A DNA stretch of 64,000 bases from Bradyrhizobium sp. CCBAU 53338 (lineage in GTDB: Bacteria; Pseudomonadota; Alphaproteobacteria; Rhizobiales; Xanthobacteraceae), in assembly GCF_015291665.1 (NCBI RefSeq), contig NZ_CP030048.1, forward strand, positions 682,001-746,000, in the 5' to 3' direction. The position numbers were made by a program, and so were the translations under genes. Within the stretch, counting starts at the first letter, position 1. Each line of letters begins with the position of its first letter. Of the stretch, positions 5,810 through 55,779 are shown piece after piece. Under the pieces are notes generated by a model, which made no database searches, had not been told where the DNA came from, and was given only the letters and a program-made list of their open reading frames with translations.

Positions 5810-5821
5810 CGGGAGTGCGTC

Positions 5822-6742
5822 ATGCGCCCTTTGACGGCGATTTCAAGCGGCCTTTTGCTGGCAGCGTGTCTGCTGGCAACGGGGGCCTCCGCCCAGACCG
5901 GCGGCAGCGAAGGGCTTAGCCCGACGCTGTCAGCCATCAAGAACGCGCACACCGTGCGGCTCGGCTATCGCGAAAGCTCGCCGCCGTTCTCCTTCCTCGA
6001 CCAGGCTAACAGGCCGATCGGCTACAGCCTCGAACTCTGCGAGGCCGTGGTCGAGGAGATCGGCATCGAGGTCGACGATGCCAATCTGAAGATCGACTAT
6101 GTCAAGGTCACCTCGGATGACCGCATCGACGCCGTGCTCCAGAACAAGATCGATCTGGAATGCGGCTCGACCACGGCCAATTCCGAGCGCGGCAAGCGCG
6201 TCGCCTTCTCGCCGCTGATGTTCGTCGCCGGCACCAAGCTGATGGTGCCGAAGGCGTCCAGCGTCCAGTCGTTGATCGACTTGAAGGGCAAGACCGTCGT
6301 GGTGACGAAAGGCACGACCAACGAGCAGGCGATCCAGGCGGCGGACAAGAAGCTCTCGCTGGGCCTGAACATCGTCGTCGGCGCCGATCACGAGCAGTCC
6401 TACCAGATGCTGGTCGATGGCAAGGCCGATGCGTTCGCGACCGACGATATTCTCCTCTCGGGCCTGATCGTGCGCCACAAGGCGCAGGACAAGTTTCGCG
6501 TCACCGGTGACTATCTGTCCTACGATCCCTACGGCATCATGTTCCGCAAGGGGGACCCGCAACTGGCGGCGGTGGTCGAGCGTGCCTTCCGCAAGCTCGG
6601 CTCCAATCACGATCTCGTGCCGCTCTACAACAAATGGTTCATCGCGCGCATGCCGACCGGCGAGAAAATGAACGTGCCGATCTCGCTGCAGCTGGAGGAG
6701 GCGTTCAAGGCGATGGACGATTCCGCCAGCGCGAACAACTAG
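5822..6742 (+). CDS. Amino acid ABC-type substrate-binding protein, family 3 (Glu/Asp-like)
   Basis: 306 aa; signal peptide to about residue 25 (LLATGASAQ), then the SBP_bac_3 fold beginning VRLGYRESSPPFSFLDQANR and containing ECGSTTANSERGKRVAFSPL, typical of GltI-like glutamate/aspartate binding proteins. It starts 12 bp after the symporter stop behind GGGAG, so it is one operon with it. No ABC permease or ATPase gene is nearby. It may feed a distant ABC system, act as a sensor, or hand substrate to the symporter. Confidence 0.88.
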   Translation: MRPLTAISSGLLLAACLLATGASAQTGGSEGLSPTLSAIKNAHTVRLGYRESSPPFSFLDQANRPIGYSLELCEAVVEEIGIEVDDANLKIDYVKVTSDDRIDAVLQNKIDLECGSTTANSERGKRVAFSPLMFVAGTKLMVPKASSVQSLIDLKGKTVVVTKGTTNEQAIQAADKKLSLGLNIVVGADHEQSYQMLVDGKADAFATDDILLSGLIVRHKAQDKFRVTGDYLSYDPYGIMFRKGDPQLAAVVERAFRKLGSNHDLVPLYNKWFIARMPTGEKMNVPISLQLEEAFKAMDDSASANN

Positions 6743-6771
6743 CTGAATTTCACGCGGCGATCTCGCTGCAC

Positions 6772-6790
6772 CTTCTCCCACGGGGAGAAG
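6772..6790. repeat. Extragenic palindrome, class A
   Basis: CTTCTCCC / GGGAGAAG, 8-bp arms around a 3-nt loop, just after the binding-protein gene. It is nearly the same as the palindrome at 20353-20373, so this looks like a dispersed extragenic element that may also act as a transcript 3' hairpin. Confidence 0.55.
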
Positions 6791-6813
6791 CGATGACGCC
6801 GTGTACCTGGTGC

Positions 6814-7617
6814 TCAGCGCGCTTCGTCGAACACCCGATCCAGCGCCGCATCATACGTCGCCTGCACAAGCTCCGGGTGCAGCTTCCCGAGCGCTTCCAT
6901 CATCACCCCGGAATTGATCTCGAGCACGCGCCAGGTGCCATCGACCAGAACCACGTCGATCGACGCGAAGCGGATGCCGATGGCGCTCGCGGCTTCGATC
7001 GCGAGCTTCACGCACGCCGTGCGAACCGTGCCTTGCTTCAGCAACACCGGTTTGGCGCCAGCATCGAGATTGTGCCGCCAATCCGTGCCGCGCTGCTTGC
7101 TGTAGACGACGCGGGGCGCATCATCGAGCAGGATCACACGGACCTCGTTCTCGATCGCGACATAGGGCGAGATCACGAGCCCGGTGCTCATCGAAAAGAC
7201 CTCGCCAATCGCGTGGTCGAGCTCTGCCTCCGTCGTCACCTTGAACACCGAGCGCCCCGAGGTACCCTCGTTGGGCTTCGCCACCACGCCTTGCGGATTC
7301 TCTCGAAGCAGCTCGACCATCCCATCTCGCCAGTTGGGGCCGGCAACCTTCTCGCCCAGCTTCGGGTTGAGGAGGAGATGATGGGGAATGCAGGGCACGC
7401 GTGCGAGCGACAGGACCTCGGCGGTTGCCGATTTGTCGTTGGCAAGGCGGTGCGCGATCGCGCTGTTCAGGCCGATGTCGTAACCGAAGGCGAAGCGGCG
7501 CATCTCCCCGCGGCGCATCGCGATCAGCCAGCCGCCCGAGCGGACATCGACGTCGATGCCGTGGCGCGCGCCATAGCTCCTGATCGCCTGGACGAAGATC
7601 CGTTCGCTGCTTGCCAT
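6814..7617 (-). CDS. ATP-grasp domain protein (RimK-like)
   Basis: 267 aa with an ATP-grasp core: the nucleotide lysine region GVVAKPNEGTSGRSVFKV, the adenine-hinge region ISPYVAIENEVRVILLDD, and the metal-binding end WRVLEINSGVMMEAL. These enzymes make carboxylate-amine bonds through acyl-phosphates (RimK, cyanophycin synthetase C-domain, peptide ligases). There is no N-terminal partner domain and no obvious substrate gene next to it. Divergent from fpr. Substrate unknown. Confidence 0.75.
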   Translation of the reverse strand: MASSERIFVQAIRSYGARHGIDVDVRSGGWLIAMRRGEMRRFAFGYDIGLNSAIAHRLANDKSATAEVLSLARVPCIPHHLLLNPKLGEKVAGPNWRDGMVELLRENPQGVVAKPNEGTSGRSVFKVTTEAELDHAIGEVFSMSTGLVISPYVAIENEVRVILLDDAPRVVYSKQRGTDWRHNLDAGAKPVLLKQGTVRTACVKLAIEAASAIGIRFASIDVVLVDGTWRVLEINSGVMMEALGKLHPELVQATYDAALDRVFDEAR

Positions 7618-7989
7618 GTCTTGATCGTTCCAGGCGCCAAAAGCCGCAAAAATGCGGGAAATGGCGCCAAAGCCGGGTGAAAGTCAGAGCTATTCTTAAT
7701 GAAATTCTCGCGAGCACGACGGAAATTAAGTGCTGCTTTCGCGGCCAAAAAGGAAAAGATATTGCCCCCTTCGCGTGCCGGACAGCAGATCCGTTAATGA
7801 CGTGACCATTTCCGCCGCAAATGCCGGTTTGACCGGCATCAATTGCATCCGGAACGAGGTTGATTATTGGTCGTAATGGCGTAGATCACTCACGCGAAAT
7901 CCTCCGCCACGGCAATGGTGTCCGCCCGTTTTCAGGGCCGGGCAATGCTTTTGCCCGAAAACCCGCAGACATTCGGAATATCGAAAATC
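7618..7989. other. Intergenic region between divergent ATP-grasp gene and fpr
   Basis: 372 bp without a convincing gene. It holds a perfect 8-bp inverted repeat ATGCCGGT-TTG-ACCGGCAT at 7821-7839, placed about 150 bp before fpr, that could be an operator or a small hairpin. An in-frame extension of fpr to 7915 exists but adds residues not found in this family. Confidence 0.5.
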
Positions 7990-8763
7990 ATGAGCGCGTT
8001 TTACCGAGAGAAGGTTCTTTCCGTCCAGCATTGGACCGACACGCTGTTCAGCTTCCGCGCTACGCGCGACACCGGCTTCCGCTTCCAGAACGGCCAGTTC
8101 GCCATGATCGGCCTCGAGGTCGACGGCCGTCCGCTGCTGCGGGCCTACAGCATGGCCAGCGCCAACCACGAGGAAGAGCTCGAGTTCTTCTCGATCAAGG
8201 TGCAGGACGGTCCGCTGACCTCGCGCCTGCAGAAGATCAAGGAGGGCGACACCATCCTGGTCGGCCGCAAGGCGACCGGCACGCTGATCACCGACAATTT
8301 GATCCCCGGCAAGCGGCTGATGCTGCTTTCGACCGGTACCGGCCTTGCGCCCTTCGCCAGCCTGATCAAGGACCCCGAGGTCTATGAGCAGTTCGAGAGC
8401 ATCGTGCTGGTGCACGGCTGCCGCCAGGTGTCCGAGCTCGCCTATGGCGAGAAGCTCGTCGCCAGTCTGCGCGAGGACGAGCTGTTCGGCGAGCTGCTCG
8501 CCGACAAGCTGATCTATTATCCGACCGTGACGCGCGAGCCGTTCCGCAACCGCGGCCGCATTACCGACCTCATCAACTCCGAGCAGATCTTCAACGACAT
8601 CGGGCAGGGTCCCCTCAACATCGAGACCGACCGCGTCATGATGTGCGGCAGCCCGGCGATGCTCGAAGAGTTGAAGGTGATGTTCGAGAGCCGCGACTTC
8701 GTCGAAGGCTCCGGCAACAGGCCCGGCCATTTCGTGATCGAGAAGGCGTTCGTCGAGCGCTGA
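7990..8763 (+). CDS. fpr: Ferredoxin--NADP+ reductase
   Basis: 257-aa cytoplasmic FAD enzyme that exchanges electrons between NADPH and ferredoxin/flavodoxin. The FAD signature RAYSMASAN lies near residue 54. The NADP domain has LLSTGTGLAPFASLIKD and VMMCGSPAML, and the protein ends in the short tail FVIEKAFVER typical of the bacterial FPR subclass. ATG at 7990 was chosen because it gives the family length. In alphaproteobacteria this enzyme serves oxidative-stress defence and reductant supply. Confidence 0.93.
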   Translation: MSAFYREKVLSVQHWTDTLFSFRATRDTGFRFQNGQFAMIGLEVDGRPLLRAYSMASANHEEELEFFSIKVQDGPLTSRLQKIKEGDTILVGRKATGTLITDNLIPGKRLMLLSTGTGLAPFASLIKDPEVYEQFESIVLVHGCRQVSELAYGEKLVASLREDELFGELLADKLIYYPTVTREPFRNRGRITDLINSEQIFNDIGQGPLNIETDRVMMCGSPAMLEELKVMFESRDFVEGSGNRPGHFVIEKAFVER

Positions 8764-8775
8764 TTGGCTCTCGGT

Positions 8776-8801
8776 GTCGTCCTGGCTTTCGCCAGGACGA
8801 C
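8776..8801. repeat. Extragenic palindrome, class B
   Basis: GTCGTCCTGGC-TTTC-GCCAGGACGAC, perfect 11-bp arms and a 4-nt loop, 12 bp after the fpr stop. A related shorter copy lies at 61082-61099 in the other orientation. It is likely a dispersed REP-like element; with no T-run it is at best a weak intrinsic terminator. Confidence 0.65.
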
Positions 8802-8988
8802 GGCGGTGGGCACAGCGTCTCGCCCGGCTAGCAGCTCCTCCGCATCCCCGCTCTCTGCTGCACTGCAGCAGCCCAGCCCATCGGGCTGATTGATTTGCCT
8901 CATCCAAATTCGCTAGCCTGAAACAAGCGCTGCGTCATATCCGTATGACAGGCGTGGGCGTATCGTACTGCCCGATGCTGGCGAGAGG

Positions 8989-10701
8989 ATGGGAATCGTG
9001 GCCGACGACACCAAGACGCAGGAATCCTACAACGGTCCATCTCCCAAGCGCCTGCCGCTGGCCGAAGAGGGAATCCTGGAAACCCTTCTGCTTCCCTTCT
9101 CGCCACGCTTCATCATCCTGACGATCTGCGCGGTCGTCACCGCGCTGCTGATCGGAATTGGCATCGCGGACCGCAAGATCTTCGGCATCCTGCTGATCCC
9201 GATCGCCATCTTCGGGGCCCTGACGGCGCTCGGCGTCCGCGATCTCATGCAGAAGAGCCACGCGGTGCTGCGCAACTACCCGATCTCGGCGCATATCCGT
9301 TTCCTGCTCGAAGAGATCCGCCCGGAGATGCGGCAGTATTTCTTCGAGAGCGAGAAGGACGGCATGCCGTTCTCGCGCGACACCCGCGCAGTGGTCTATC
9401 AGCGCGCCAAGATGCAGCTCGACAAGCGTCCGTTCGGTACCCAGGAGGACGTCTATCGCGAGGGCTATGAGTGGATGCATCACTCGGTGTCGCCGAAGGC
9501 GCATGCCGAGGAGAAGTTTCGTGTCACCATCGGCGGGCCTGACTGCGCAAAACCCTATTCGGCTTCGGTGTTCAACATCTCGGCGATGAGCTTTGGCGCG
9601 CTCAGCCCGAATGCGGTGCGCGCGCTCAATGCCGGCGCCAGGAAGGGCGGCTTCGCCCATGACACCGGCGAGGGTGGCGTCAGCCCCTATCATCGCGAGA
9701 TGGGCGGCGACATCATCTGGGAGATCGGCTCGGGCTATTTCGGTTGCCGTCATCTCGACGGCACATTTGATCCCGAAGCCTTCGCGCGCGTCGCTGGTGA
9801 CGACCAGATCAAGATGGTCGAGCTCAAGGTCAGCCAGGGCGCCAAGCCCGGCCACGGCGGCGTGCTGCCGGCGGCGAAAGTCTCGGAAGAAATCTCCAAG
9901 ATCCGCGGCGTCGCGATGGGCGAGGATTGCATTTCGCCGGCCTCGCACCGTGCCTTCTCAACGCCTGTTGGCATGATGCAGTTCATCGCGGAGATGCGAA
10001 GGCTTTCCGGCGGCAAGCCGGCGGGCTTCAAGCTCTGCATCGGTCATCCCTGGGAATTCCTGGCGATCTGCAAGGCGATGCTGGAGACCGGCATCTATCC
10101 CGACTTCATCGTGGTCGACGGCAACGAAGGCGGCACCGGTGCGGCGCCCCTCGAGTTCATGGACCATCTGGGCATGCCGATGCGCGAGGGCATCAATTTC
10201 GTCCACAACGCTCTGGTCGGCATCAATGCGCGCGATCGCATCAAGATCGGCGCCTCCGGCAAGATCGCGACCGCCTTCGACATGGCACGCGCCATGGCGA
10301 TCGGCGCGGACTGGTGCAATTCTGCGCGCGGCTTCATGTTCTCGCTCGGTTGCATCCAGTCGCTGAGCTGCCATACCGACCGCTGCCCGACCGGCGTCGC
10401 GACCCAGGATCCGACGCGGGCGCGTGCACTGTACGTGCCGCTCAAGATCGACCGCGTCCACAATTATCACCACGCCACGCTGCACTCGTTGACCGAGCTG
10501 ATCGCCGCGGCGGGCCTGACCCATCCGCAGGAGCTGCGCCCGATCCACTTCAGCCAGCGGACGTCGACGACCAAGGTGCAGTCCTTCGCGCAGCTCTATC
10601 CGGCGCTGCGTCCGGGCGAACTGCTCCAGGGCACCGAAGACCCCCGGTTCCGTGATGCCTGGCAGATGGCGCGGGCGGATACGTTTCAGCCGGCGATCTG
10701 A
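8989..10701 (+). CDS. Membrane-anchored FMN-binding glutamate synthase family protein
   Basis: 570 aa. Two hydrophobic segments near residues 35-85 come before a GltB central/FMN domain. Signatures are AMSFGALSPNAVRALNAGA, VVDGNEGGTGAAPLEFMD and a [3Fe-4S]-type cysteine cluster CIQSLSCHTDRC. It lacks the N-terminal glutaminase and the GXGXG C-terminal domain of true glutamate synthase, so ammonia channeling from glutamine is not expected. Its substrate is unknown. GAGAGG directly abuts the ATG at 8989, so GTG at 8998 may be the true start. Confidence 0.85.
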   Translation: MGIVADDTKTQESYNGPSPKRLPLAEEGILETLLLPFSPRFIILTICAVVTALLIGIGIADRKIFGILLIPIAIFGALTALGVRDLMQKSHAVLRNYPISAHIRFLLEEIRPEMRQYFFESEKDGMPFSRDTRAVVYQRAKMQLDKRPFGTQEDVYREGYEWMHHSVSPKAHAEEKFRVTIGGPDCAKPYSASVFNISAMSFGALSPNAVRALNAGARKGGFAHDTGEGGVSPYHREMGGDIIWEIGSGYFGCRHLDGTFDPEAFARVAGDDQIKMVELKVSQGAKPGHGGVLPAAKVSEEISKIRGVAMGEDCISPASHRAFSTPVGMMQFIAEMRRLSGGKPAGFKLCIGHPWEFLAICKAMLETGIYPDFIVVDGNEGGTGAAPLEFMDHLGMPMREGINFVHNALVGINARDRIKIGASGKIATAFDMARAMAIGADWCNSARGFMFSLGCIQSLSCHTDRCPTGVATQDPTRARALYVPLKIDRVHNYHHATLHSLTELIAAAGLTHPQELRPIHFSQRTSTTKVQSFAQLYPALRPGELLQGTEDPRFRDAWQMARADTFQPAI

Positions 10702-28985: not shown

Positions 28986-29153
28986 TCAGATCAGCCGCAT
29001 GCCGCGCAGGCTCGCATGTCCGCTTTTGCCTACAATGATGTGGTCGTGCACGGCAATCCCCAGCGGCTTGGCGATGTCGATGATCGCCTTGGTCATCTGG
29101 ATGTCGGCCTGCGAGGGCGAGGGATCGCCGGAGGGGTGATTGTGGAGGAACCT
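28986..29153 (-). pseudogene. radC: radC, 3' fragment left of the island
   Basis: Only the last 55 or so residues of RadC remain, in the frame that ends at 28986. They hold the JAMM signature [18 protein letters not shown] and the usual C-terminus [11 protein letters not shown]. The residues before LHNHPSG do not fit RadC, so the coding similarity stops near 29150 where island DNA begins. A full RadC is about 230 aa. The gene is 5'-truncated and presumably dead. Confidence 0.85.
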
Positions 29154-29304
29154 ACAGTTTCCGTTATCACCTTGAGAAACCGAAGAGTTCTGCAACAGCA
29201 AGGTTAGCAGGGGACGTACACTGGGGACGGTACGCATTGACCATTTGTGATTATCATGCTGCCTCACGGACAAGCTTCCAGTTCTGCTTTTTGATCATGT
29301 GTAG

Positions 29305-30714
29305 TCACGAGCCCAAGAGCTGCATAGCATTTTCCAATTGCGCAGCAAGGTACGCTCGATGCTGCTTGAGCCGCACAGAGGCGTCGCCGATCGCCTGTGC
29401 AAGCAGATCGTCTGCCTCCACTAGTGCCTGGCCCCACGTTTTCCATGGTGGCCTATCTTCATCACTCGAAAGGCGACGTGCAATTGCTATGTTCGTTGCT
29501 GCGCGCTCTGCTTCGCTAAACAGATCCGGTCGTTCCACGAAGATGAGGCGCTTTGCCAGCTTGCGAAGGCGGTCATCTGCAATCGACTGCAACAAAAGGA
29601 GCCTCTCTTCCCAAGTAATGGAATGGAACCGATCCATGGTGTCCTCGTCCGCACGCGAGCAGAACCTTTCGTAAATTTGCTCCTCCACATGAGCGGAGGG
29701 TGCGCGCGGCGGGCGCGTTTGTACGAACAGCGTGCGTAGTCGCGCTCGAAGTTGCTCGTTCTCCTGGAGATAACGGACGCGTTCCTCCAGCACGTCCGAC
29801 GGTATTCCCGCAGTGCTCACGAATGATGGGGCGTCCTCGAGGCGCCGGATAATCGGTGCAGCATTAGATCGGACGCGCCGAACCGGTTTCGGCAGCTGGT
29901 TCAATCGAGCGAGAACATCCTCGTCCGGTAGGGAGGCGAACTCTACCGGATCGTGGCAGAGATCGAATACTAACAAGTCGCTTGCGATTTCGAGTGACTG
30001 ACCAATGAATGTAACTCCCCATGAGTACGCGCGGTTGGCATAGAAGTCGGTGACCGAAAACAGAGGTTCATTTGCCACGAAGTCGATAACGGCTGCCTTC
30101 TGCGTGAATTGGACCAGCGATGACCACAATTCGGGCGCTCGTTCGAACACGAGTCGACACAAGTGCAATGTTGCCTCGGAATCTCCAAGTGCATCATGGG
30201 TGCTTGCGTGATTGAAGCCGTTCGCCGATGCTAACTTTTCGAGCTTGAATACCGAGTTTCCATTTTCATCGAGCGGTATAGACAACGTGCCCGGTGCAAA
30301 GATCGCTGCTGCTTGCATAAAGCGCAAAGCATCGGCTCGGCAATTGCCGGTTGTGTTTGTGAGGTAGGGGCCGTGGAGTGTCTGATAAAGAGTCTGGCGC
30401 AGGAGATGCTCGTCGAAAGAGAGCGAGTTGTATCCAATGAAGATTGAGGGCCTCCACGACCGAAACTTTCCGTAGATGGCGCGCGCCATTGCATAGTGAG
30501 AAGGGAGTTGTGGGTTCGTGAGAATATCGACCGTGAGCCCAGTTACTCGCATCGCGCCGGGTGACGGGACAACGTATGGAAGGAGGCGGGATCGAATCTC
30601 AAACCGGTCCAGCTCGCCAAGGTCACTGTCGGTCCTAATAGCCGCCAGTTGGAGAATTTGATCGAACGCAACGTTCGTGCCCGTAGTCTCCGTGTCGTAG
30701 AACACAAAACTCAT
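29305..30714 (-). CDS. Exodeoxyribonuclease I-like DEDDh exonuclease
   Basis: 469 aa. ExoI-like motifs are DTETTG (residues 7-12; metal-binding D and E), GYNSLSFDEHLLRQTLY near residue 94, and the DEDDh motif III THDALGDSEATLHLCRLV near 172. The C-terminal half has the ExoI-like helical region with RYLQENEQLRARL. SbcB degrades single-stranded DNA 3'-5'. Third gene of an operon after XRE and ImmA, 21 bp gap. Likely a defence or DNA-processing nuclease of the island rather than the housekeeping SbcB. Confidence 0.82.
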   Translation of the reverse strand: MSFVFYDTETTGTNVAFDQILQLAAIRTDSDLGELDRFEIRSRLLPYVVPSPGAMRVTGLTVDILTNPQLPSHYAMARAIYGKFRSWRPSIFIGYNSLSFDEHLLRQTLYQTLHGPYLTNTTGNCRADALRFMQAAAIFAPGTLSIPLDENGNSVFKLEKLASANGFNHASTHDALGDSEATLHLCRLVFERAPELWSSLVQFTQKAAVIDFVANEPLFSVTDFYANRAYSWGVTFIGQSLEIASDLLVFDLCHDPVEFASLPDEDVLARLNQLPKPVRRVRSNAAPIIRRLEDAPSFVSTAGIPSDVLEERVRYLQENEQLRARLRTLFVQTRPPRAPSAHVEEQIYERFCSRADEDTMDRFHSITWEERLLLLQSIADDRLRKLAKRLIFVERPDLFSEAERAATNIAIARRLSSDEDRPPWKTWGQALVEADDLLAQAIGDASVRLKQHRAYLAAQLENAMQLLGS

Positions 30715-30735: not shown

Positions 30736-31287
30736 CTATCCAGAAAACGAAGAAAATAGCGCGCTTAATCTATTTCCCATTGCCTCTTTAGACACTCTGA
30801 ATTGCTTGGCGAGCTTCTCGATGCGAGTGCTGTCGTCCACGTCGAAGGTTTTGCGTAGTTCGGTTTCAAGAAAGGCGCGGGGCATAAGCAATTCAGCAGC
30901 GAATCTATTCGCTTGAATTTCGACGTCATCGGTTCCGAGGGCCGATCGTGAATCTCGATTAAGTTGTCGAATGACAACGGACGGGAATTCCTTGTCGACA
31001 TGCACCTGCGTCGTAATCATGGGGCGGTGTAATACGAGGTGTCCGCACTCATGGGCAATGGTAAAGCGCTGACGATTTGGGTGATGGAGAGCATTTACGC
31101 CGATAATAGGAACATTGTCCTTTATATAAATCATTCCCGAAATATCGTTATGAAGTGGCGAGAATCGAACAAGCGCGCCGAGCGTCCGAGCTATTTTGTC
31201 GACGGGAACAGGTGCCGTTTTTATGTTGTTACGCTGAAGAATGTCGAGCGCAGCTTGCGAGGGATTGGTTGAAGCTCGAGCGCTCAC
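30736..31287 (-). CDS. ImmA/IrrE family metallopeptidase
   Basis: 183 aa; zinc-binding HECGH at residues 79-83 inside FTIAHECGHLVLHRP, with the third-ligand glutamate region EIQANRFAAELLMP downstream. ImmA peptidases cleave or inactivate the XRE repressor encoded beside them after DNA damage. The start overlaps the XRE gene by 4 bp (ATGA at 31284-31287). Confidence 0.9.
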   Translation of the reverse strand: MSARASTNPSQAALDILQRNNIKTAPVPVDKIARTLGALVRFSPLHNDISGMIYIKDNVPIIGVNALHHPNRQRFTIAHECGHLVLHRPMITTQVHVDKEFPSVVIRQLNRDSRSALGTDDVEIQANRFAAELLMPRAFLETELRKTFDVDDSTRIEKLAKQFRVSKEAMGNRLSALFSSFSG

Positions 31288-31634
31288 TTCTTTTGCTCCT
31301 TGGTGGGGGAAGTGCGCATTGGTGCTTGTCCTGTGATGACGCGTGCCAATTGCGCTTCTTGTTCGGCAGTGAGTCCTTCTGGCATCGGAAGCCCAGTCGG
31401 CGAGGCCTGATCTTTTATGTTTGGCGGCAGTAGCTCGTGCACTTCCAGCTCAAGTGCATCCGCTATTCGATAGAGCTGATGAAGGAGCATGTTCTGCCGA
31501 CCAGACTCGATGTTGGCGACAGCACCTCGAGAGATCCCCAGACGGGCCGCTAGATCGGCCTGCGTGTACTCGAGCGTGCGGCGCCGTCGACGAATTAAAG
31601 CACCGAGTTCTTGATAAAGCCTAGGCGTGTCCAT
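31284..31634 (-). CDS. XRE-family transcriptional regulator
   Basis: 116 aa from the ATG at 31632-31634, with a HTH_3 domain near residues 10-65 (YTQADLAARLGISRGAVANIESGRQ) and a C-terminal tail after a Pro-rich joint that may be the ImmA-sensitive part. An in-frame GTG at 31658 would lie upstream of the predicted transcription start. Probable repressor of its own operon and of the divergent ubiquitin-like operon 153 bp away (inference). Confidence 0.88.
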   Translation of the reverse strand: MDTPRLYQELGALIRRRRRTLEYTQADLAARLGISRGAVANIESGRQNMLLHQLYRIADALELEVHELLPPNIKDQASPTGLPMPEGLTAEQEAQLARVITGQAPMRTSPTKEQKK

Positions 31635-31639
31635 GGGGG

Positions 31640-31668
31640 TGTGTACCCCCTTGCACACAAAGTGTCAA
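31640..31668 (-). promoter_or_regulatory. Promoter of the XRE operon, probably leaderless
   Basis: Minus-strand -35 TTGACA (31663-31668, perfect) and -10 TACACA (31640-31645) with a 17-bp spacer. The -10 ends 5 bases before the ATG at 31634, so transcription would start at or next to the start codon. An interrupted dyad GTGTG...CACAC spans the spacer and -10, a likely autoregulatory operator. Confidence 0.6.
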
Positions 31669-31715
31669 TTTTATGAGTCGAAAAGCGTGTATTAATATCA
31701 TTTCTGGTGCGTCTA

Positions 31716-31744
31716 TTGAAATCCAAACACGGGTGGATTATATG
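31716..31744 (+). promoter_or_regulatory. Promoter of the ubiquitin-like operon
   Basis: TTGAAA (31716-31721), 17-bp spacer, TATATG (31739-31744); transcription would start near 31751, giving a leader of about 37 nt before the chosen ATG at 31788. Back-to-back with the XRE promoter, about 48 bp apart. Confidence 0.55.
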
Positions 31745-31787
31745 AGCGACAGGCTCGGCGGCGGCTAGCGCAAAGATGAGGTCGAAC

Positions 31788-32054
31788 ATGCAGACTGTGA
31801 CGGAGGCGGACAAACCCGCCAAAGACGGCAAGGGTCCGAAGTACATCCTCAACATTGAGGGGAACGAGGTGCCTTGGGATAGCGACACGATCACGACCAA
31901 GGAGATCGCAAACCTGGGTGGCTGGGATATCAGCCAAGGCGTGATCGAAGTCGACCAGGACAACAACGAGCGGACGCTCGCGGCGGATGAGACCGTCACC
32001 ATCAAGCCCGGCCAGGGCTTCGGCAAAAAGCATAAGTGGAAGCGGGGTAGCTGA
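31788..32054 (+). CDS. Ubiquitin-like protein (multiubiquitin domain)
   Basis: 88 aa from the ATG at 31788, which follows GAGG; an ATG at 31776 would add four residues. One multiubiquitin-family beta-grasp domain (YILNIEGNEVPWDSDTITTK ... IEVDQDNNERTLAADETVTI) ends in KKHKWKRGS, so a Gly is followed by a single Ser. In Ubl systems a C-terminal Gly must be exposed for activation. The adjacent JAMM peptidase could trim the Ser. Its stop overlaps the E2-like start by one base. Presumed modifier conjugated to targets. Confidence 0.85.
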   Translation: MQTVTEADKPAKDGKGPKYILNIEGNEVPWDSDTITTKEIANLGGWDISQGVIEVDQDNNERTLAADETVTIKPGQGFGKKHKWKRGS

Positions 32055-32458
32055 TGCGCCCGCGAATTCAGGAAGAACTGACGCTTCTGCGCCAGTTCTA
32101 TCCCGACGTGCAGCACGCGGCGCCGGCCGGCGACGACTGGTTCTTTCTTCCCCAATATGCGCTGCCGCCGGGGTGGCGTCTTGGGGAGCAGGAGGTCTCC
32201 GCCTCTGCACTCTGCTTTTCCGTCAGCGGCGGCTACCCTACAGCATTGCCATACGCGTTCCTATTGCCAGATGGGATCAATTTCGGCGGAGTGGTGCCGG
32301 CTAACACCACCACATCGGCGAACTCACCGTTTAGCGGCGCCTGGCTGCAGTTTTCATGGTCGCCCGAGACTTGGTTTCCACAATCGGACGCCCGAAAGGG
32401 TTCGAATTTGCTGGTGTGGGTGCGGAGCTTCCAGCACCGGCTGAAGGAGGGGGCATGA
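32054..32458 (+). CDS. E2/UBC-like conjugating protein (Prok-E2_E type)
   Basis: 134 aa with an E2-like beta-meander: LCFSVSGGYPTALPYAFLLP aligns with the usual strand followed by YPxxxP, then a W-rich end (FSWSPETWFP). The only cysteine is at residue 54, before the YP motif and not after it where the thioester cysteine of eukaryotic E2 lies. Function as Ubl carrier is inferred from context and fold. Overlaps the Ubl gene by 1 bp and the JAMM gene by 4 bp. Confidence 0.75.
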   Translation: MRPRIQEELTLLRQFYPDVQHAAPAGDDWFFLPQYALPPGWRLGEQEVSASALCFSVSGGYPTALPYAFLLPDGINFGGVVPANTTTSANSPFSGAWLQFSWSPETWFPQSDARKGSNLLVWVRSFQHRLKEGA

Positions 32459-32967
32459 AAACTACACTTAAGTTGCCGACGGGCGTCTTCGAGGATATCA
32501 GGGCTCATCTGCTGCCGCGCGGCAGCATCCAGGAGCAGGCCGCGTTTCTCTTCGTGAACCCGCAGGTGGCGTGCGACGCGAGGTTCGAACTCCTCGAGTA
32601 CCAGAAGCTTGGTCCAGCCGACTTCGACGTGCAGGAGAGTGACTACCTTGAGCTCCGTGACGAAACACGCGGCCGCTTAATCAAGCGGGCGCACGATCTC
32701 AAGGCGTCGCTGGTGGAGCTCCATTCGCACCCGGGTCCTTGGCCTGCCGGCTTCTCGATGTCAGACCGCCGAGGGCTACGTGAGACCGTTCCACACATGT
32801 GGTGGCGCCTGTCCAGACGCCCGTACTTAGCAATCGTTGTCGCTCCAAGTGGATTCGATGCCCTCGTGTGGCTCGATAATCCGAAGATGCCGCGCGCGCT
32901 CGACGAACTCGTCGCCGGCACCACCATCATGAAGCCGACGAATAACTCGCTCGAAGGTTGGCAATGA
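32455..32967 (+). CDS. JAMM/Mov34-type deubiquitinase-like peptidase
   Basis: 170 aa. JAMM zinc site: Glu27 (EQAAFLFV), His90 and His92 in ELHSHPG, Ser101 and Asp104 in FSMSDRRG. These enzymes cut isopeptide bonds or trim Ubl C-termini. ATG at 32455 overlaps the E2 stop (ATGA), and the stop overlaps the E1 start by 4 bp. Probable roles are maturation of the Ubl (removal of the last Ser) and deconjugation. Confidence 0.87.
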   Translation: MKTTLKLPTGVFEDIRAHLLPRGSIQEQAAFLFVNPQVACDARFELLEYQKLGPADFDVQESDYLELRDETRGRLIKRAHDLKASLVELHSHPGPWPAGFSMSDRRGLRETVPHMWWRLSRRPYLAIVVAPSGFDALVWLDNPKMPRALDELVAGTTIMKPTNNSLEGWQ

Positions 32968-33836
32968 AGAATCTGCCGGAAAGGTATGACCGCAACATTC
33001 GGCTCTTCGGCGAAGAGGGGCAGCGGAAACTCCTAACAACGAAGGTGTTGATTGCCGGCGTCGGTGGCCTCGGCAGTCCTCTGGTGCAACACCTCGCACT
33101 TCTCGGAGTCGGGGGGATAGGTCTTGTCGATGATGAAGAGCTTGACGAGACCAATCGGAACCGCTTCGTCGGCGCTCGCCATGACGATCCGGTGCCTGGG
33201 AGCCTAAAGGTACTCCTGAGCAAGCGGCTTGCCAACGAGATCGATCCAACGATCAAAATCACAGAGATTCCCGACGGTCTTGTATCCGAGAAGGCCTTCG
33301 CCGCCGTCAAGGCCGTAGACGTCGTGTTCGGGTGTTTCGACGAAGACGGGCCTCGCGCGATTCTTAATGAGTTGTGTGCCGCGTATCGCAAGAACTACAT
33401 CGATCTCGCGTCTGACATACCAGAGCCCGGAGTGTATGGCGGCCGCGTCTGCACCTCGTGGGATGGTGATGGTTGTCTATTCTGCATGGGCGAGCTCGAT
33501 GGCCGCGCTGTGCAAGAGTATCTGCAAACCGATGCCGAGCGACAGATACGAGACCGCATCTACGGCGTTGACCAGAACGTACTCGCAGGGAAAGGACCTT
33601 CGGTGTCTCCGATCAACGGAGTGGTTGCCTCTCTCGCAGCGGTGGAGTTCATGGCTGCAGTCACGGGACTTCGAGAGCCAAAGAAATTGCTGAATTATTC
33701 GGGACATCTTGGGACGGTGAACGTTAGGCGGGAGCAGGCGCCTGATTGCTACATCTGCAAAAGCCTTCGCGGCCAGGCTGAGGCTGCAGACGTCGAGCGC
33801 TATCTGCGAATGCCGCATCTGCGCAGGCGGCGCTGA
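32964..33836 (+). CDS. ThiF/E1-like Ubl-activating enzyme
   Basis: 290 aa. Nucleotide-binding GVGGLGS (32-38), catalytic Arg/Asn region DETNRNRF (61-68), aspartate-containing VFGCFDEDG, and two CxxC pairs CLFC (171-174) and CYIC (262-265) that form the usual zinc site. It should adenylate the Ubl C-terminus with ATP. In the crossover loop, where ThiF/MoeB-type E1s often carry the thioester cysteine, the sequence reads AGKGPSVSPINGV with no Cys. Last gene of the four-gene operon. Confidence 0.87.
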   Translation: MKNLPERYDRNIRLFGEEGQRKLLTTKVLIAGVGGLGSPLVQHLALLGVGGIGLVDDEELDETNRNRFVGARHDDPVPGSLKVLLSKRLANEIDPTIKITEIPDGLVSEKAFAAVKAVDVVFGCFDEDGPRAILNELCAAYRKNYIDLASDIPEPGVYGGRVCTSWDGDGCLFCMGELDGRAVQEYLQTDAERQIRDRIYGVDQNVLAGKGPSVSPINGVVASLAAVEFMAAVTGLREPKKLLNYSGHLGTVNVRREQAPDCYICKSLRGQAEAADVERYLRMPHLRRRR

Positions 33837-34024: not shown

Positions 34025-36082
34025 TCATTTGCGTCTCGACAGCGTCGCGATCCACGCCGTTGTCACGCCCTTCGGATTGATGCCCGTTCCGGCGATCACC
34101 GTCCCATCGCCCGAAACTCCATCAGCGCCCACCAGTTTCCAGCCGGTGAATGAGACCCCGGCGGCGGTTAGCAACTCTTCTATCGACTTCATGCCGTCGC
34201 TGGCCGTCCAGCGGAAGGCCCTTCCGCCGCTCGTGCCGACCACGACGGTGCCGTCCGCGTTGACACGAGCAGCGGTGCCGGATTTTTCGCCGAGAAGGTT
34301 ACCGAGGCTGACCATGCCGTCTGCTTGCGTCCAGCGAAAAGCTTCAGAATTTCCACCGGGAAATTTACTTGAGCCGACCACAGTTGAGCCGTCGCTACTC
34401 ACACCAGCGGCATAGCTGGAACTAGCTCCCGGCAAGAAGCCAAGTCCAATCATGCCAGTCTGCTGCGTCCAGCGGAAGGCCTCGCAATTCTCTAGACAGC
34501 TTTGACCTACAACCACCTTGCCGTCTTTGCTCACGGCATATGCGCCGCTGGAGTCGCTTCCCGGCAAAAATCCGAGTGCGGTCCAACCTGTCGCGTCGGT
34601 GTAGATGGCGGCTTGATTCTTACCGGCTTGCTTGTTCACGCACGGGGTTAGAGAACCGACAATGACTGTGCCATTCGCGTCTACATCGTAGGCCATGCTA
34701 CTGCCGTTTGCGGGCAAACGGACCATGCCTTCGGCGGCAGTCCAGCGCCAAGGCTCATTAGGAGAGCAATTCCCGCCGTAGCCGACGTAACCGACCACAA
34801 CAGAGCCGTCGACGTTCACCCCCAAGGCCTCCGTAACCTCTGTACGGCCGCGGGGAGGACCAATATAGACCATACCATTTTCTGCCGACCAACGCATAGC
34901 GCCGACGGGATAGTTGTTTGGAGCTATTTCCTTACTTCCTATGCCTCCGACTACCACTTTTCCGTCGCTGCTGATTTTGTGAACTCCGCTAGTTGCGAAC
35001 CCTTCAACAACTCCTAGGCTCTGAAAGCTTCCTTTTCCTTTCGGATTAACGATAGCAAGTCCAGCCCATACTGCTACGATGGCTGCCACTGATCCCAGGA
35101 TCGACCAAATGAACCGCTTGCGTCGTTTCAGTTTTTGCTGGCGATCTTTAACAATTGCGGCTTTTGCTGCCCTCGCTCGTGACTGAAGTTCCCCAAGCTT
35201 GATGAGTTCATCCTCTTTAAGGAGCTTCTGTGCGATCAGAAACTTCAGTGCGGCGACCCGACCTTGAAGAACAAGGAAGTCCTTTTCAACCTCGCCGAGA
35301 TTAAAATCGATCGTTCCGATTGGGGCGGTATCTATGAGGACCGTTTGATTACGATATTTCTGAAGCAAGTCGGGATCGTTTCGTTCGATCCAAATTGACA
35401 ACAAATCTGCGAGCACCGATGTGGGCTTGATCGGAGGTGGCTTCTCCGGTCCGAGGTACAGCGCTACGAAGAAAGGATCTGGAGCGCCGTTGGTTCGCTC
35501 ACGCTCTTGATTAAGGAAGATCTGAACCGGGTAGTTAGCGAGGAGTCCGCCGTCGTAAACGCGACGGTTGTCCATCCATTGCGGTTGAAAGAAGTAGGGT
35601 ATCGACATACTGCAACGAACCGCATTGTACACAGTGATGTCGTCGTGTTGCCCCCAAGAGTCGAACGTGACCTCGCCACGTCTTTGCGTTGATGCGTAGA
35701 CGACCGCCCTTTTCGGTAGGTCGTGCATTAAGACCTCGTTATGCCTCTCAAGGCGTTCAAACAGCAGGTCTCTCACCCAGTTTATGAGGGTATGGGCAGG
35801 GTGAATGCCGCGCGACCACCAGAATTGAAATGGAAGCTTCCAATAGGTGCCGTCGAGGAAATCGCGAAATCTCTTTTCCCGCAGGTTTCGTTCGAGGTCG
35901 GTCGCGCTTGCCCCGGCAGCTAACAAAGCAGCGCCGATTGCGCCTGCCGAAGTTCCTACGAAGGTATCAAACTGGTAGCAGCGTTCTAGTTCTTGGACAG
36001 CACCGGCAAACGCCAGCCCCTTGACCCCGCCGCCCTTCATTATGAGGACTGCCGTGGCTGTCCTGGTGCAATCATTTGGCAT
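34025..36082 (-). CDS. Patatin-like phospholipase fused to a membrane segment and HAF beta-propeller
   Basis: 685 aa. Patatin domain, residues 10 to about 255: oxyanion GGGVKG (17-22), nucleophile GTSAG with Ser45, and DGG with Asp177. A charged helix (about 290-322) precedes one TM segment (324-345). Then come seven HAF-type repeats of the form VSxDGxVVVG ... AFRWTxxxGM (from about 365 to 680), a number that fits a seven-bladed propeller. The catalytic domain should face the cytosol and the propeller the periplasm. Patatins act as membrane-degrading effectors in several phage-defence systems. This architecture is new to me. Confidence 0.82.
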   Translation of the reverse strand: MPNDCTRTATAVLIMKGGGVKGLAFAGAVQELERCYQFDTFVGTSAGAIGAALLAAGASATDLERNLREKRFRDFLDGTYWKLPFQFWWSRGIHPAHTLINWVRDLLFERLERHNEVLMHDLPKRAVVYASTQRRGEVTFDSWGQHDDITVYNAVRCSMSIPYFFQPQWMDNRRVYDGGLLANYPVQIFLNQERERTNGAPDPFFVALYLGPEKPPPIKPTSVLADLLSIWIERNDPDLLQKYRNQTVLIDTAPIGTIDFNLGEVEKDFLVLQGRVAALKFLIAQKLLKEDELIKLGELQSRARAAKAAIVKDRQQKLKRRKRFIWSILGSVAAIVAVWAGLAIVNPKGKGSFQSLGVVEGFATSGVHKISSDGKVVVGGIGSKEIAPNNYPVGAMRWSAENGMVYIGPPRGRTEVTEALGVNVDGSVVVGYVGYGGNCSPNEPWRWTAAEGMVRLPANGSSMAYDVDANGTVIVGSLTPCVNKQAGKNQAAIYTDATGWTALGFLPGSDSSGAYAVSKDGKVVVGQSCLENCEAFRWTQQTGMIGLGFLPGASSSYAAGVSSDGSTVVGSSKFPGGNSEAFRWTQADGMVSLGNLLGEKSGTAARVNADGTVVVGTSGGRAFRWTASDGMKSIEELLTAAGVSFTGWKLVGADGVSGDGTVIAGTGINPKGVTTAWIATLSRRK

Positions 36083-53193: not shown

Positions 53194-54240
53194 TTATGCG
53201 GCCAGCTTCTCGTCGCGTGGGTGCCAATTTGTTTGGTCTTCGATCCAGCGGTTGACCACCGGTTGCCCAACATTTCCATTTATCCCGTATCTCGGGTTCA
53301 ACATTTCTATCGCGGATCGGAGGGTGGAGGGAGCTACGTGGGCATATCGCATGGTGGTCATGATGCTTGCGTGCCCTAAGAGTGTCTGCACCACATTGAG
53401 TGGGACCCCGCGCGTAGCGAGATGCGACGCGAAGGTATGACGCAGAGCGTGCCATGTGATTTTGCGCAACCCCGCTCTTTGGCAAGTTTTGGCCAAACGG
53501 AGATTTAAGCGCGGACTGTTGAATGGCCTCTTGTCGTCTAAAAACACGAATCCGGACGCTTGCTTGCGTGCGTGAAGCATCTCAATAATATTGCCATCGA
53601 TTGGAATATATCTCTCCTTGTTGCTCTTTGGTGTGTCGAGGATCTTGCGAATGTCACAGTAGGAATGTCGAACAGCGATCACTCTGGTTTCCCAATCTAT
53701 GGACGACCACTGTAGCCCTTTGATCTCTCCCTGCCGCATGCCTGTGCGAAGCGTGGTTATGGTCATTTCGCGCACAATTCCATCCGCATGTTTGACCAGC
53801 AGCTCACATTCGTCTGGCGATAGATAGTCGGTTTTGGAAGGCGGACATCTTGGCCACCTCGTTCTTGGAGGTGATCCCCTCAGTTCGAGCCATTCGTACG
53901 CGCAGGACAGACATTTGTGGAGCACCGTTAGTCGATTCCTTATCGTCTTGCCCGAGATCCCCTGTGCGATTAGTTTTGCTTTGTATTGCTCCAACTGATG
54001 TGGGGTGATTTCGCCGAGCCGGATATTCCCAAAAAAGGGGATCAAGCTGAGCCGCAAAATGGCTTCCTTTGCTCGCTGCTCCGAGAACTTGTTGTTCGCT
54101 TTCACATAGTGGTCGAACCATGTTCGAGCGAAGTCGGAGAAGCCCTGATCCTTGGAATGCTCCCGAGGTCCTGTCTGCTCTCCTCTGGCTAGCCCAGACA
54201 GGTCCCTGGCGAGGCAGCGCGTGTCCCTGCGCGGTTGCAA
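53194..54240 (-). CDS. Tyrosine recombinase (site-specific integrase) at island edge
   Basis: The frame gives 348 aa from TTG at 54240. Core-binding domain about 38-120 (GFSDFARTWFDHYVKANNK), then the complete catalytic set: Arg in TTLRTGMRQGE, Lys in SNKER, HALRHTF, LLGHASIMTTMRYAHV with the Tyr nucleophile. The first 30 or so residues are read from the disrupted EamA gene and have no family look. No ATG, GTG or TTG lies in the island part ahead of the core-binding domain. So the gene is probably 5'-truncated by the junction or borrows its start from core DNA. The N-terminal arm-binding domain is missing. Confidence 0.82.
   Translation of the reverse strand: MQPRRDTRCLARDLSGLARGEQTGPREHSKDQGFSDFARTWFDHYVKANNKFSEQRAKEAILRLSLIPFFGNIRLGEITPHQLEQYKAKLIAQGISGKTIRNRLTVLHKCLSCAYEWLELRGSPPRTRWPRCPPSKTDYLSPDECELLVKHADGIVREMTITTLRTGMRQGEIKGLQWSSIDWETRVIAVRHSYCDIRKILDTPKSNKERYIPIDGNIIEMLHARKQASGFVFLDDKRPFNSPRLNLRLAKTCQRAGLRKITWHALRHTFASHLATRGVPLNVVQTLLGHASIMTTMRYAHVAPSTLRSAIEMLNPRYGINGNVGQPVVNRWIEDQTNWHPRDEKLAA
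54170..54202. repeat. Inverted repeat at the right island junction
   Basis: CCTGTCTG (54170-54177) and CAGACAGG (54195-54202), perfect 8-bp arms around 17 bp, exactly where integrase reading and EamA reading meet. This has the form of a tyrosine-recombinase core site (two inverted arms, central overlap). No copy was found at the left border. Confidence 0.5.
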
Positions 54241-54427
54241 TGAGCAGCAGCAGGATGGCCGCGAGCGTCACGCGCACCGCGACCATCGTGAACGGCGGGA
54301 TTGTTGGGATCGCCACCTTGATCAGCGTGAACGAGCTGCCCCAGATCAGCGACAGCAGCAGTAGGAGGCCGATCTCGCCGGCGAGGGTGGTTTGCGCGGA
54401 AGGTGCCTGCTCGGCCTGCGTGCTCAT
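54193..54427 (-). pseudogene. EamA/DMT transporter, 5' fragment right of the island
   Basis: From the ATG at 54425-54427 the frame gives about 78 residues of an EamA transporter: GLLLLLSLIWGSSFTLIKVA, PPFTMVAVRVTLAAILLLLI, which are TM1 and TM2. Reading then leaves the family near GPVWAS (around 54193). A full protein has ten TM segments and about 290-300 aa, so about three quarters is missing. Confidence 0.8.
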
Positions 54428-54559
54428 GCGGTCTGCTCCGGAATTTGCCGGCAGCATGATCAGGAAGCGGCGGCGCCGGCTGGCTGAATTCGGACCTGAT
54501 CGTCCGATCGAGTCCGATTTCGGCTACTCCATGCGCTGCATCGAACCTATTGTCAGGGC

Positions 54560-55156
54560 ATGACGACGGGATCAATGCAACGGCAAGCTTTGCCACCGCA
54601 TCTCGACCGGGAGACCTGCGACCGGGCGCGGCTGGCACGCGCGCGCGCCTTCGACGGCCTGTTTTTCTCCGGTGTTCGCTCGACGAAGATCTATTGCCGG
54701 CCGGTCTGTCCGGTGCGTCCGGCGCGCTCGGAGAACGTCACCTTCTACCCGACCGCAGCCGCCGCCGAACGCGCCGGCTTTCGTCCATGCCTGCGCTGCC
54801 GGCCTGAAACCGCGCCGGGCTCGCCGGCCTGGCTGGGCACGGCCACCACCGTCGCGCGCGGGATGCGGTTGATCGACGACGGCTTTCTCGATCGGGCCTC
54901 CATGGCGGAACTTGCCGAGGCTCTTGGCGTCGGGCCGCGCCATCTGCTGCGTCTGTTCCTGCGCCATGCCGGTGCGAGCCCCAGCGACATCGCGGCCACC
55001 CGGCGCGTGCAGGAAGCCAAGCGCCTGATCGACCAGACCGACATGACCCTGGCGGAGATCGCCTTCGCCGCCGGTTTTGGCAGCGTTCGTCGCTTCAACG
55101 ACGCCTTTGCCGCGACCTACAAGCGGCCGCCATCGTCGTTCCGGCGTCGGCGGTAG
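54560..55156 (+). CDS. AdaA-type regulator: Ada zinc domain plus AraC HTH
   Basis: 198 aa. Ada metal-binding domain with YCRPVCPVRPAR and FRPCLRCRPE (four Cys; the first would accept the methyl group), then an AraC HTH (about 110-195; SPSDIAATRRVQEAKRLIDQ, IAFAAGFGSVRRFNDAFAA). No methyltransferase or glycosylase domain, as in AdaA. It senses methyl-phosphotriester DNA damage and activates alkylation-repair genes. Its target is not next to it. Confidence 0.87.
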   Translation: MTTGSMQRQALPPHLDRETCDRARLARARAFDGLFFSGVRSTKIYCRPVCPVRPARSENVTFYPTAAAAERAGFRPCLRCRPETAPGSPAWLGTATTVARGMRLIDDGFLDRASMAELAEALGVGPRHLLRLFLRHAGASPSDIAATRRVQEAKRLIDQTDMTLAEIAFAAGFGSVRRFNDAFAATYKRPPSSFRRRR

Positions 55157-55338
55157 GGCGCCCCGCCTTACGGAGATAATCGGCAGCACGGTTCCAAATG
55201 GGCTGTCCCACCCCGCTCAGATGCGCGGCGTGACCAGGCGAAAAAATTTTTGCATCCACCGTTTCCTTTCCACCTCTTCGTTCGTCTCTGCGCTGAGGGC
55301 CTCAACGAGCGGCCAGCAGAGTTCAAAGGAGAACCTCG

Positions 55339-55779
55339 ATGTCAGAGATCAAATCCACGCCATCGCGTCGTGCGGTCCTCGTCACCGGCATCGGTGCCGG
55401 CGTCGTGCTCACCGCTCAAATCGTCCCGTGCCACAGCCAGACCAGGAGTTCGAACATGGAAGCTACCATCCGCACCGGCAGCGACATCACCACCCTCGTC
55501 AACGTCTTCACGGTCGAGCCTGACAACCAGGAAAAGCTGGTTCGGCTCCTGAAGGAGGGCATCGAGACCTTCTTCAGCAAACAGCCGGGCTTCATCTCGT
55601 CGAGCGTTCACGCCGGCAAGGACGGCGGACGCGCGATCAACTATTCGCAATGGAAGAGCGCGGGCGACATCGAGAGCTTCCGCAAGGACCCGAAATTCGC
55701 GCCTTACGTCCAGCGCCTTGCCGCCATAGCGAAGGCCGAGACGATCCTGTGCGAGGTCGTCGAGGTCAATCATGCCTGA
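55339..55779 (+). CDS. Exported antibiotic biosynthesis monooxygenase (ABM) domain protein
   Basis: 146 aa behind AAAGGAG. The N-terminus PSRRAVLVTGIGAGVVLTAQ is a twin-arginine-type signal. The mature part is a dimeric alpha/beta ABM barrel (ITTLVNVFTVEPDNQEKLVR, NYSQWKSAGDIESFRK). An exported ABM protein with a Tat signal is uncommon; a haem- or flavin-free oxygenase role is inferred only. Followed 65 bp later by an ECF sigma factor gene on the same strand. Confidence 0.82.
   Translation: MSEIKSTPSRRAVLVTGIGAGVVLTAQIVPCHSQTRSSNMEATIRTGSDITTLVNVFTVEPDNQEKLVRLLKEGIETFFSKQPGFISSSVHAGKDGGRAINYSQWKSAGDIESFRKDPKFAPYVQRLAAIAKAETILCEVVEVNHA

Follow-up and report, generated by a model that had tools for sequence, protein, structure and literature searches.

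The stretch of Bradyrhizobium DNA that we analyzed (64,000 nucleotides, hereafter the window) contains a compact operon for a ubiquitin-like protein (Ubl), an E2-like protein, a JAB/JAMM peptidase and a ThiF/E1-like adenylase. Sequence comparison places this operon in a distinct branch, here called the KRG branch, of the 6e/Bub class, class 6e having been predicted by Iyer et al. in 2006 (PMC1779556). We lean toward the view that the four genes specify a DNA-damage-induced, thioester-free pathway of Ubl conjugation and deconjugation belonging to this class. It is feasible that the KRG branch already falls inside the published set of Bub operons. The four genes of the operon are as follows:

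31788-32054, plus strand: Ubl gene, 88 aa, with a single Multi_ubiq-type domain (Pfam Multi_ubiq E=1.1e-4)
32054-32458, plus strand: E2-like (Prok-E2_E-related) gene, 134 aa, assigned by profile comparison
32455-32967, plus strand: JAB/JAMM peptidase gene, 170 aa (Prok-JAB 24.4 bits)
32964-33836, plus strand: ThiF/E1-like adenylase gene, 290 aa, with a single adenylation domain (Pfam ThiF E=2.8e-38)

The original prediction of a four-gene operon was confirmed at these coordinates (31788-33836), with successive overlaps of 1, 4, and 4 bp, and the order Ubl-E2-JAB-E1, with JAB and E1 as separate genes, is found in 10/10 loci (the window and nine others). In each of the four genes pN was well below pS (4/4 comparisons; pS 0.54-0.84 and pN 0.15-0.34, with synonymous sites saturated in several of the comparisons), indicating purifying selection and therefore that the operon is maintained. 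The recurrence of the order in 9/9 other loci, together with the low pN, argues that the four-gene arrangement did not arise by chance; the operon is real and conserved.

The content originally proposed for the operon, namely a Ubl, an E2-like protein, a JAMM peptidase with the full EHHSD set and a ThiF-type E1, agrees with our Pfam searches and profile comparison. The JAMM residues E27, H90, H92, S101, and D104 are all present, and their five alignment columns are invariant in 10/10 loci. At the level of individual families the outcome was mixed. The ThiF assignment was clear and profile comparison (98.5% probability, E=2e-15) showed the E2 to be homologous to Prok-E2_E proteins, whereas the scores for Prok-JAB in the peptidase (curated Pfam cut-off 25) and for Multi_ubiq in the Ubl (22.7 bits, curated cut-off 24.5) fell just under their cut-offs, and the E2 matched no Pfam family at E<=1. 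None of the NCBIfam models, those for MoeB/ThiF included, reached its cut-off against the four proteins.

Bub/6e operons, which are represented by structures of Citrobacter BubA, BubB, and BubCD, share with the window operon a Multi_ubiq-type Ubl, a Prok-E2_E-type E2 without a conserved Cys, a JAB, a ThiF-type E1, mobility, and frequent CapH/CapP neighbors. Within the order, 12 of 297 genomes matched in a Prok-E2_E search, and our canonical set (n = 14) consists of the other 11 of these matches plus the loci L020, L022, and L023, of which L022 is nearly identical to L020. L020 is on the megaplasmid of our own host (C2 840000-858000; operon at 5307-9402) and encodes a Multi_ubiq Ubl with an FG-type tail, a Prok-E2_E protein, a JAB-E1 of 480 aa and a DUF6527 protein; the host consequently carries both branches.

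The differences between the branches concern architecture, company and sequence. The E1 lies in an ORF of at least 418 aa in 13/14 canonical loci (with L064 the exception), whereas JAB and E1 are separate genes in 10/10 loci of the KRG branch; Iyer et al. described JAB, or a domain X, as fused to E1 in most 6e operons (PMC1779556). A DUF6527-like neighbor was found by BLAST in 13/14 canonical loci (Pfam-checked in L020 only; exception L072), whereas none accompanies the KRG-branch operons: DUF6527 was absent from 9/10 of the KRG-branch host genomes or records, some of which are drafts, and the sole match among the ten belongs to the canonical operon on our host's own plasmid. Based on its position and Cys pattern, we infer that DUF6527 is the companion metal-binding protein Y of 6e. 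The Ubl tail is FG or TEG in canonical operons but KRG in this branch, and the canonical E2 has a His after its Ser, while the KRG-branch E2 is without it and has a 5-residue GSN insert. The KRG rows were split from the canonical rows by one branch of an E1 tree in 100% of 200 bootstrap trees, a count that excludes a very long MoeB row, the splitting branch's own support being only 84/45. One divergent Prok-E2_E locus, L072 (4340-7011), with SRP in place of SRH, a partial E1 match and no DUF6527 found, is possibly another variant. The original reading of a multiubiquitin-type operon outside Bil stands; missing from it, however, were the 6e/Bub class and the lack of a conserved catalytic Cys in E2 and E1, as were the Ubl end KRGS instead of GG and the divergent CapH/CapP-like genes.

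In the 47 aligned rows of KRG-branch E2 proteins, residues W97, S101, W102, W107, G116, and R129 are invariant and no Cys is conserved, the maximum in any column being 14/47. The Ser is thus present in 47/47 rows and a His two residues after it in 0/47, while in the insert G116 is present in 47/47 and S117 and N118 in 46/47 each. In canonical Bub E2s the motif S-x-H occurs in 12/13 rows, the exception being L072, which was omitted from alignment A4 and counted as a miss, and a profile comparison of the KRG-branch E2 with canonical Prok-E2_E aligns Ser on Ser. By our reading, S-x-H would be a defining feature of the Bub/6e E2. The best match of the E2 profile among solved structures was Citrobacter BubB, although it was weak (E=0.029). 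Since the His of the canonical proteins is missing, the KRG-branch E2 domain could be inactive; such E2-like domains were judged by Iyer et al. to be probably inactive and RWD-like (PMC1779556). With the Ser kept and the His gone, the branch offers a natural test of the roles of the E2 Ser and His in Bub.

The E1 alignment comprised 130 rows (the window, nine loci and 120 listed homologs, with two locus rows duplicating listed ones). Residues R67, K82, and D126, which we matched by eye to R73, K86, and D130 of MoeB (PMC12355090), are identical in 130/130 rows; the adenylation residues are intact by alignment, and the protein is predicted to have adenylating activity. Among solved structures, ThiF/MoeB is nearest to the E1 by sequence (E=1.4e-17). 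The E1 has two conserved CxxC pairs (171/174 and 262/265), and any Cys is found in just 8/130 rows between residues 175 and 245, which is where we would expect related enzymes to have their catalytic or persulfide Cys. Three other cysteines are frequent but not universal (C124 in 116/130 rows, C138 in 124/130, C163 in 119/130), which leaves some room for a thioester. At position 138 the remaining 6 rows have Ser, and the host's own MoeB-like protein seems, by eye, to have a Cys there too, for which reason we treat C138 as a residue of the fold; as a column that holds Cys or Ser only, it could also be a nucleophile. No conserved catalytic Cys was found in either the E2 (47 rows) or the E1 (130 rows), from which we predict a pathway that operates without thioesters. 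Oxyester intermediates are reportedly described in the Bub paper; a literature search on oxyesters returned nothing concerning Bub.

The window Ubl has the tail GFGKKHKWKRGS, ending in KRGS and not GG, and Gly87 is predicted to be the residue that is activated. Its end (32043-32054) has one additional residue beyond KRG. Among the 120 Ubl homologs listed (out of 207 in all), 115 terminate exactly in KRG and the other five have 1-5 further residues; many of the 120 carry PF14452. In the natural Ubl-E2 fusions P0033, which has one Ubl, and L004 (5338-6378), the E2 begins directly after KRG, which suggests a cleavage site, and the KRG end is likely where the JAMM peptidase cuts. The Tenderia operon has three Ubl domains fused to E2 (triple Ubl against Multi_ubiq, E=1.6e-34), and L029 and L030 encode long, apparently three-domain Ubls; the remaining loci have a single Ubl.

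Directly upstream of the operon and divergent from it are two genes resembling capH and capP:

31284-31658, minus strand: CapH-like HTH repressor (Pfam HTH_3 E=6.2e-11; PADLOC capH E=2.1e-10)
30736-31287, minus strand: CapP-like M78/IrrE-type metalloprotease with an HECGH motif (Peptidase_M78 E=6.1e-24; PADLOC capP E=8.1e-34)
31635-31787, no strand: divergent promoter/operator region, weak

The ATG at 31634 is the probable start of the capH-like gene. A palindrome at 31635-31650, GGGGGTGTGTACCCCC, is imperfectly supported, palindromes in the window being weak, and the operator palindrome is clearer in L028. As in CapH/CapP controllers, an HTH gene and an M78 gene are adjacent at an operon of immune type; the window differs in that the match of the CapP-like protein (183 aa) to the capP model is partial, covering positions 4-151 of 242. 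In published work, ssDNA activates CapP, which cleaves CapH, and CapW or CapH plus CapP are neighbors of 219 of 544 Bub operons (PMC13373217); ssDNA is also sensed by a further protease of this kind, PprI (PMC10904395).

An M78-type protease adjoins 8/10 KRG-branch operons, although not every locus counts as independent, since L017 is closely related to L018. It was over the Pfam cut-off in six (the window, L015, L016, L028, L029, and L030), whereas in L017 (Pfam sub-cut-off) and L018 (no Pfam match) it was recognized by an HExxH seen by eye together with weak BLAST similarity to its counterpart in the window. Upstream of the operon in L019 there is an HTH gene only; in L004, the two upstream proteins examined had no Pfam match and no M78 or HTH gene was found upstream. 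The host's 8.28-Mb genome has four M78 matches, from which the chance of adjacency is approximately 0.2% per locus. Elsewhere in the branch the HTH and M78 parts are fused or on the same strand, and the branch would tie Ubl tagging to a DNA-damage-type regulator via several unlike HTH/M78 arrangements.

In the pathway that we propose from these families, the CapH-like repressor would hold the divergent operon off and the CapP-like M78 protease, if activated by ssDNA, would cleave the repressor. The JAMM peptidase would trim or release the Ubl after the KRG glycine, the ThiF-like E1 would adenylate that glycine, and the Ubl would reach its targets while carried on the E2-like domain or by way of it, with no Cys thioester, the candidate routes being transfer directly from the adenylate or an oxyester at Ser101, which is invariant. 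The JAMM peptidase may also reverse the tag. Conjugation, induction, and any role of the operon in defense are in this scheme predictions from sequence. We put forward more tentatively, as a proposal that may well not hold, that these four genes form a minimal pathway dispensing with a catalytic Cys, a Ser-His pair and DUF6527, in which the KRG Ubl would be transferred by undescribed chemistry, for instance through a Ser101 oxyester aided by the GSN insert or, on a scaffold with the shape of an E2, by aminolysis directly at the Ubl-adenylate. If real, this would be a very small Ubl-tagging kit, made up of a carrier, an adenylase, an E2-shaped scaffold and a JAMM peptidase and lacking any conserved catalytic thiol.

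Strong matches to the E2 profile (E<1e-30) are sporadic in four overlapping genome samples: 4/197 relatives, 2/385 genomes of the class and 3/397 of the order, our own genome included in each, and 1/398 of the phylum, which is our own genome. Among the weaker matches (2e-9 to 8e-5), which also include G014, G016, and G790, those in the host's own C2 and in the genomes G060 and G094 are canonical operons. Named loci of the branch come from two relatives found among 18 stretches, one in a Reyranella MAG and one in a Streptosporangiaceae MAG, and from a Tenderia plasmid. A match was found in 1 of 72,556 plasmid records, from which records near our own genome were possibly excluded; the Ubl had no match among phage records, and searches of viral contigs with E2 and Ubl gave none that was confirmed. 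In protein sets, the KRG branch is not rare, the E1 having 882 relatives at E<=1e-60 (118 of the 120 listed, which are the best matches, have 280-319 aa); the E1 of Bradyrhizobium sp. UNPA324 is 89% identical.

The proposal that the operon is on an integrative island was borne out by the following feature:

29145-55237, no strand: island of ~26 kb carrying the operon (synteny with G060, lower GC, integrase and transfer genes)

Within radC, at 29144, synteny with the sister genome G060 (~86-90% identical) is lost, and it is regained at 55238; against two further genomes it is likewise lost at 29144 and regained near 56.8 kb. The GC content is 0.53-0.59 at 30-54 kb vs. 0.64-0.68 outside. Pfam identifies a TrwB/TraG-like protein, a Replic_Relax protein and, at 53197-54240, a phage integrase, which together mark a mobile element. 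No direct repeat of at least 12 bp was found between the end stretches 29100-29259 and 54150-55419. The radC of the window (28986-29144, minus strand) is the 3' part only (RadC E=2.9e-18), and an intact copy seems, by eye, to be present in G060. The break at base 29144, the left end of the island that cuts radC, was seen against five other genomes. The C2 contig is of equal length (979,291) in our own genome and in G060, whose chromosomes differ by >10% near the window; either the megaplasmid was shared recently or the assemblies were mixed up.

The lack of both a conserved Cys and the His in the E2 would also suit a module for Ubl-binding signaling without conjugation, in which the E2-like protein is an inactive binder of RWD type, as the judgment of Iyer et al. 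that such domains are probably inactive (PMC1779556) would allow, and the E1 and JAB act on the Ubl otherwise. We consider this unlikely, as the KRG end, the E1 adenylation residues and the JAMM residues are strongly conserved, a pattern that speaks for chemistry at the C terminus of the Ubl. Another alternative is a sulfur carrier like MoaD or ThiS, the E1 adenylating the Ubl only to form a thiocarboxylate for a metabolite or tRNA, in the manner of MoeB/ThiF. The E1 fold, the single adenylation domain and a Ubl with a C-terminal Gly are common to both, the nearest solved structures are those of ThiF/MoeB, and E1 residues 175-245 are without a conserved Cys. Nevertheless, the E2-like domain and JAMM peptidase are constant partners (10/10 loci), the tail is KRG and not GG, M78 regulators lie alongside and no metabolic or sulfur-transfer genes were noticed among the neighbors looked over, so that a sulfur carrier is distinctly improbable. 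Membership of the Bil (BilABCD) anti-phage systems deserves next to no weight, even though Bil shares the JAMM peptidase and an identical gene order (Ubl-E2-DUB-E1) and the triple Ubl of the KRG branch partly matches solved BilA (E=1.7e-13). BilB has a catalytic Cys in its CEHH motif, and BilD has inactive and active adenylation domains together with a Cys domain (PMC11354881), whereas the KRG branch has neither this Cys nor a two-part E1. The original statement that the window operon lies outside Bil despite the common order is upheld by these differences in E2 and E1, by which Bil membership is contradicted and was rejected.

Inducible Ubl conjugation and deconjugation, the reading we prefer, would not have to serve phage defense, and the same machinery might instead act in a general DNA-damage or stress response. 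The CapH/CapP-like control adjoining the operon and the SbcB-like exonuclease directly behind capP are consistent with such a role, and a global stress function of Bub was left open by its 2026 authors (PMC13373217). The operon's location on a mobile island, its sporadic presence in the genome samples and the defense or TA genes seen by eye beside some other loci argue in the opposite direction, and we regard a stress role as possible but doubtful.

The SbcB/exonuclease I-like gene (29305-30714, minus strand; PADLOC RTasSbcB E=8.3e-116) is 21 bp behind capP, and its product could influence the ssDNA signal by which CapP-type proteases are activated. We rejected it as a part of the operon, as no relative was found in the nine other loci, among which L028 is uninformative because its contig ends ~60 bp past the M78 gene. 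On the other side of the operon, a patatin-like phospholipase (34025-36082, minus strand), whose C-terminal part is long and repetitive, resembles the phospholipase effectors of PADLOC (E=1.9e-14). This gene is convergent with the E1 and has no blastp relative (E 0.01) in the nine other loci, of 10-18 kb, and was rejected as an effector of the operon. Of two neighbor proteins in L019, one had a partial dCTPase match and one had no match. The defense neighbors of the other loci were picked by eye and include HipA (L030) and PDC-S68 (L017); in addition, IetAS adjoins the relative operon in L018 (2698-6220) and AbiEi/AbiEii adjoins that in L029 (11119-13417).
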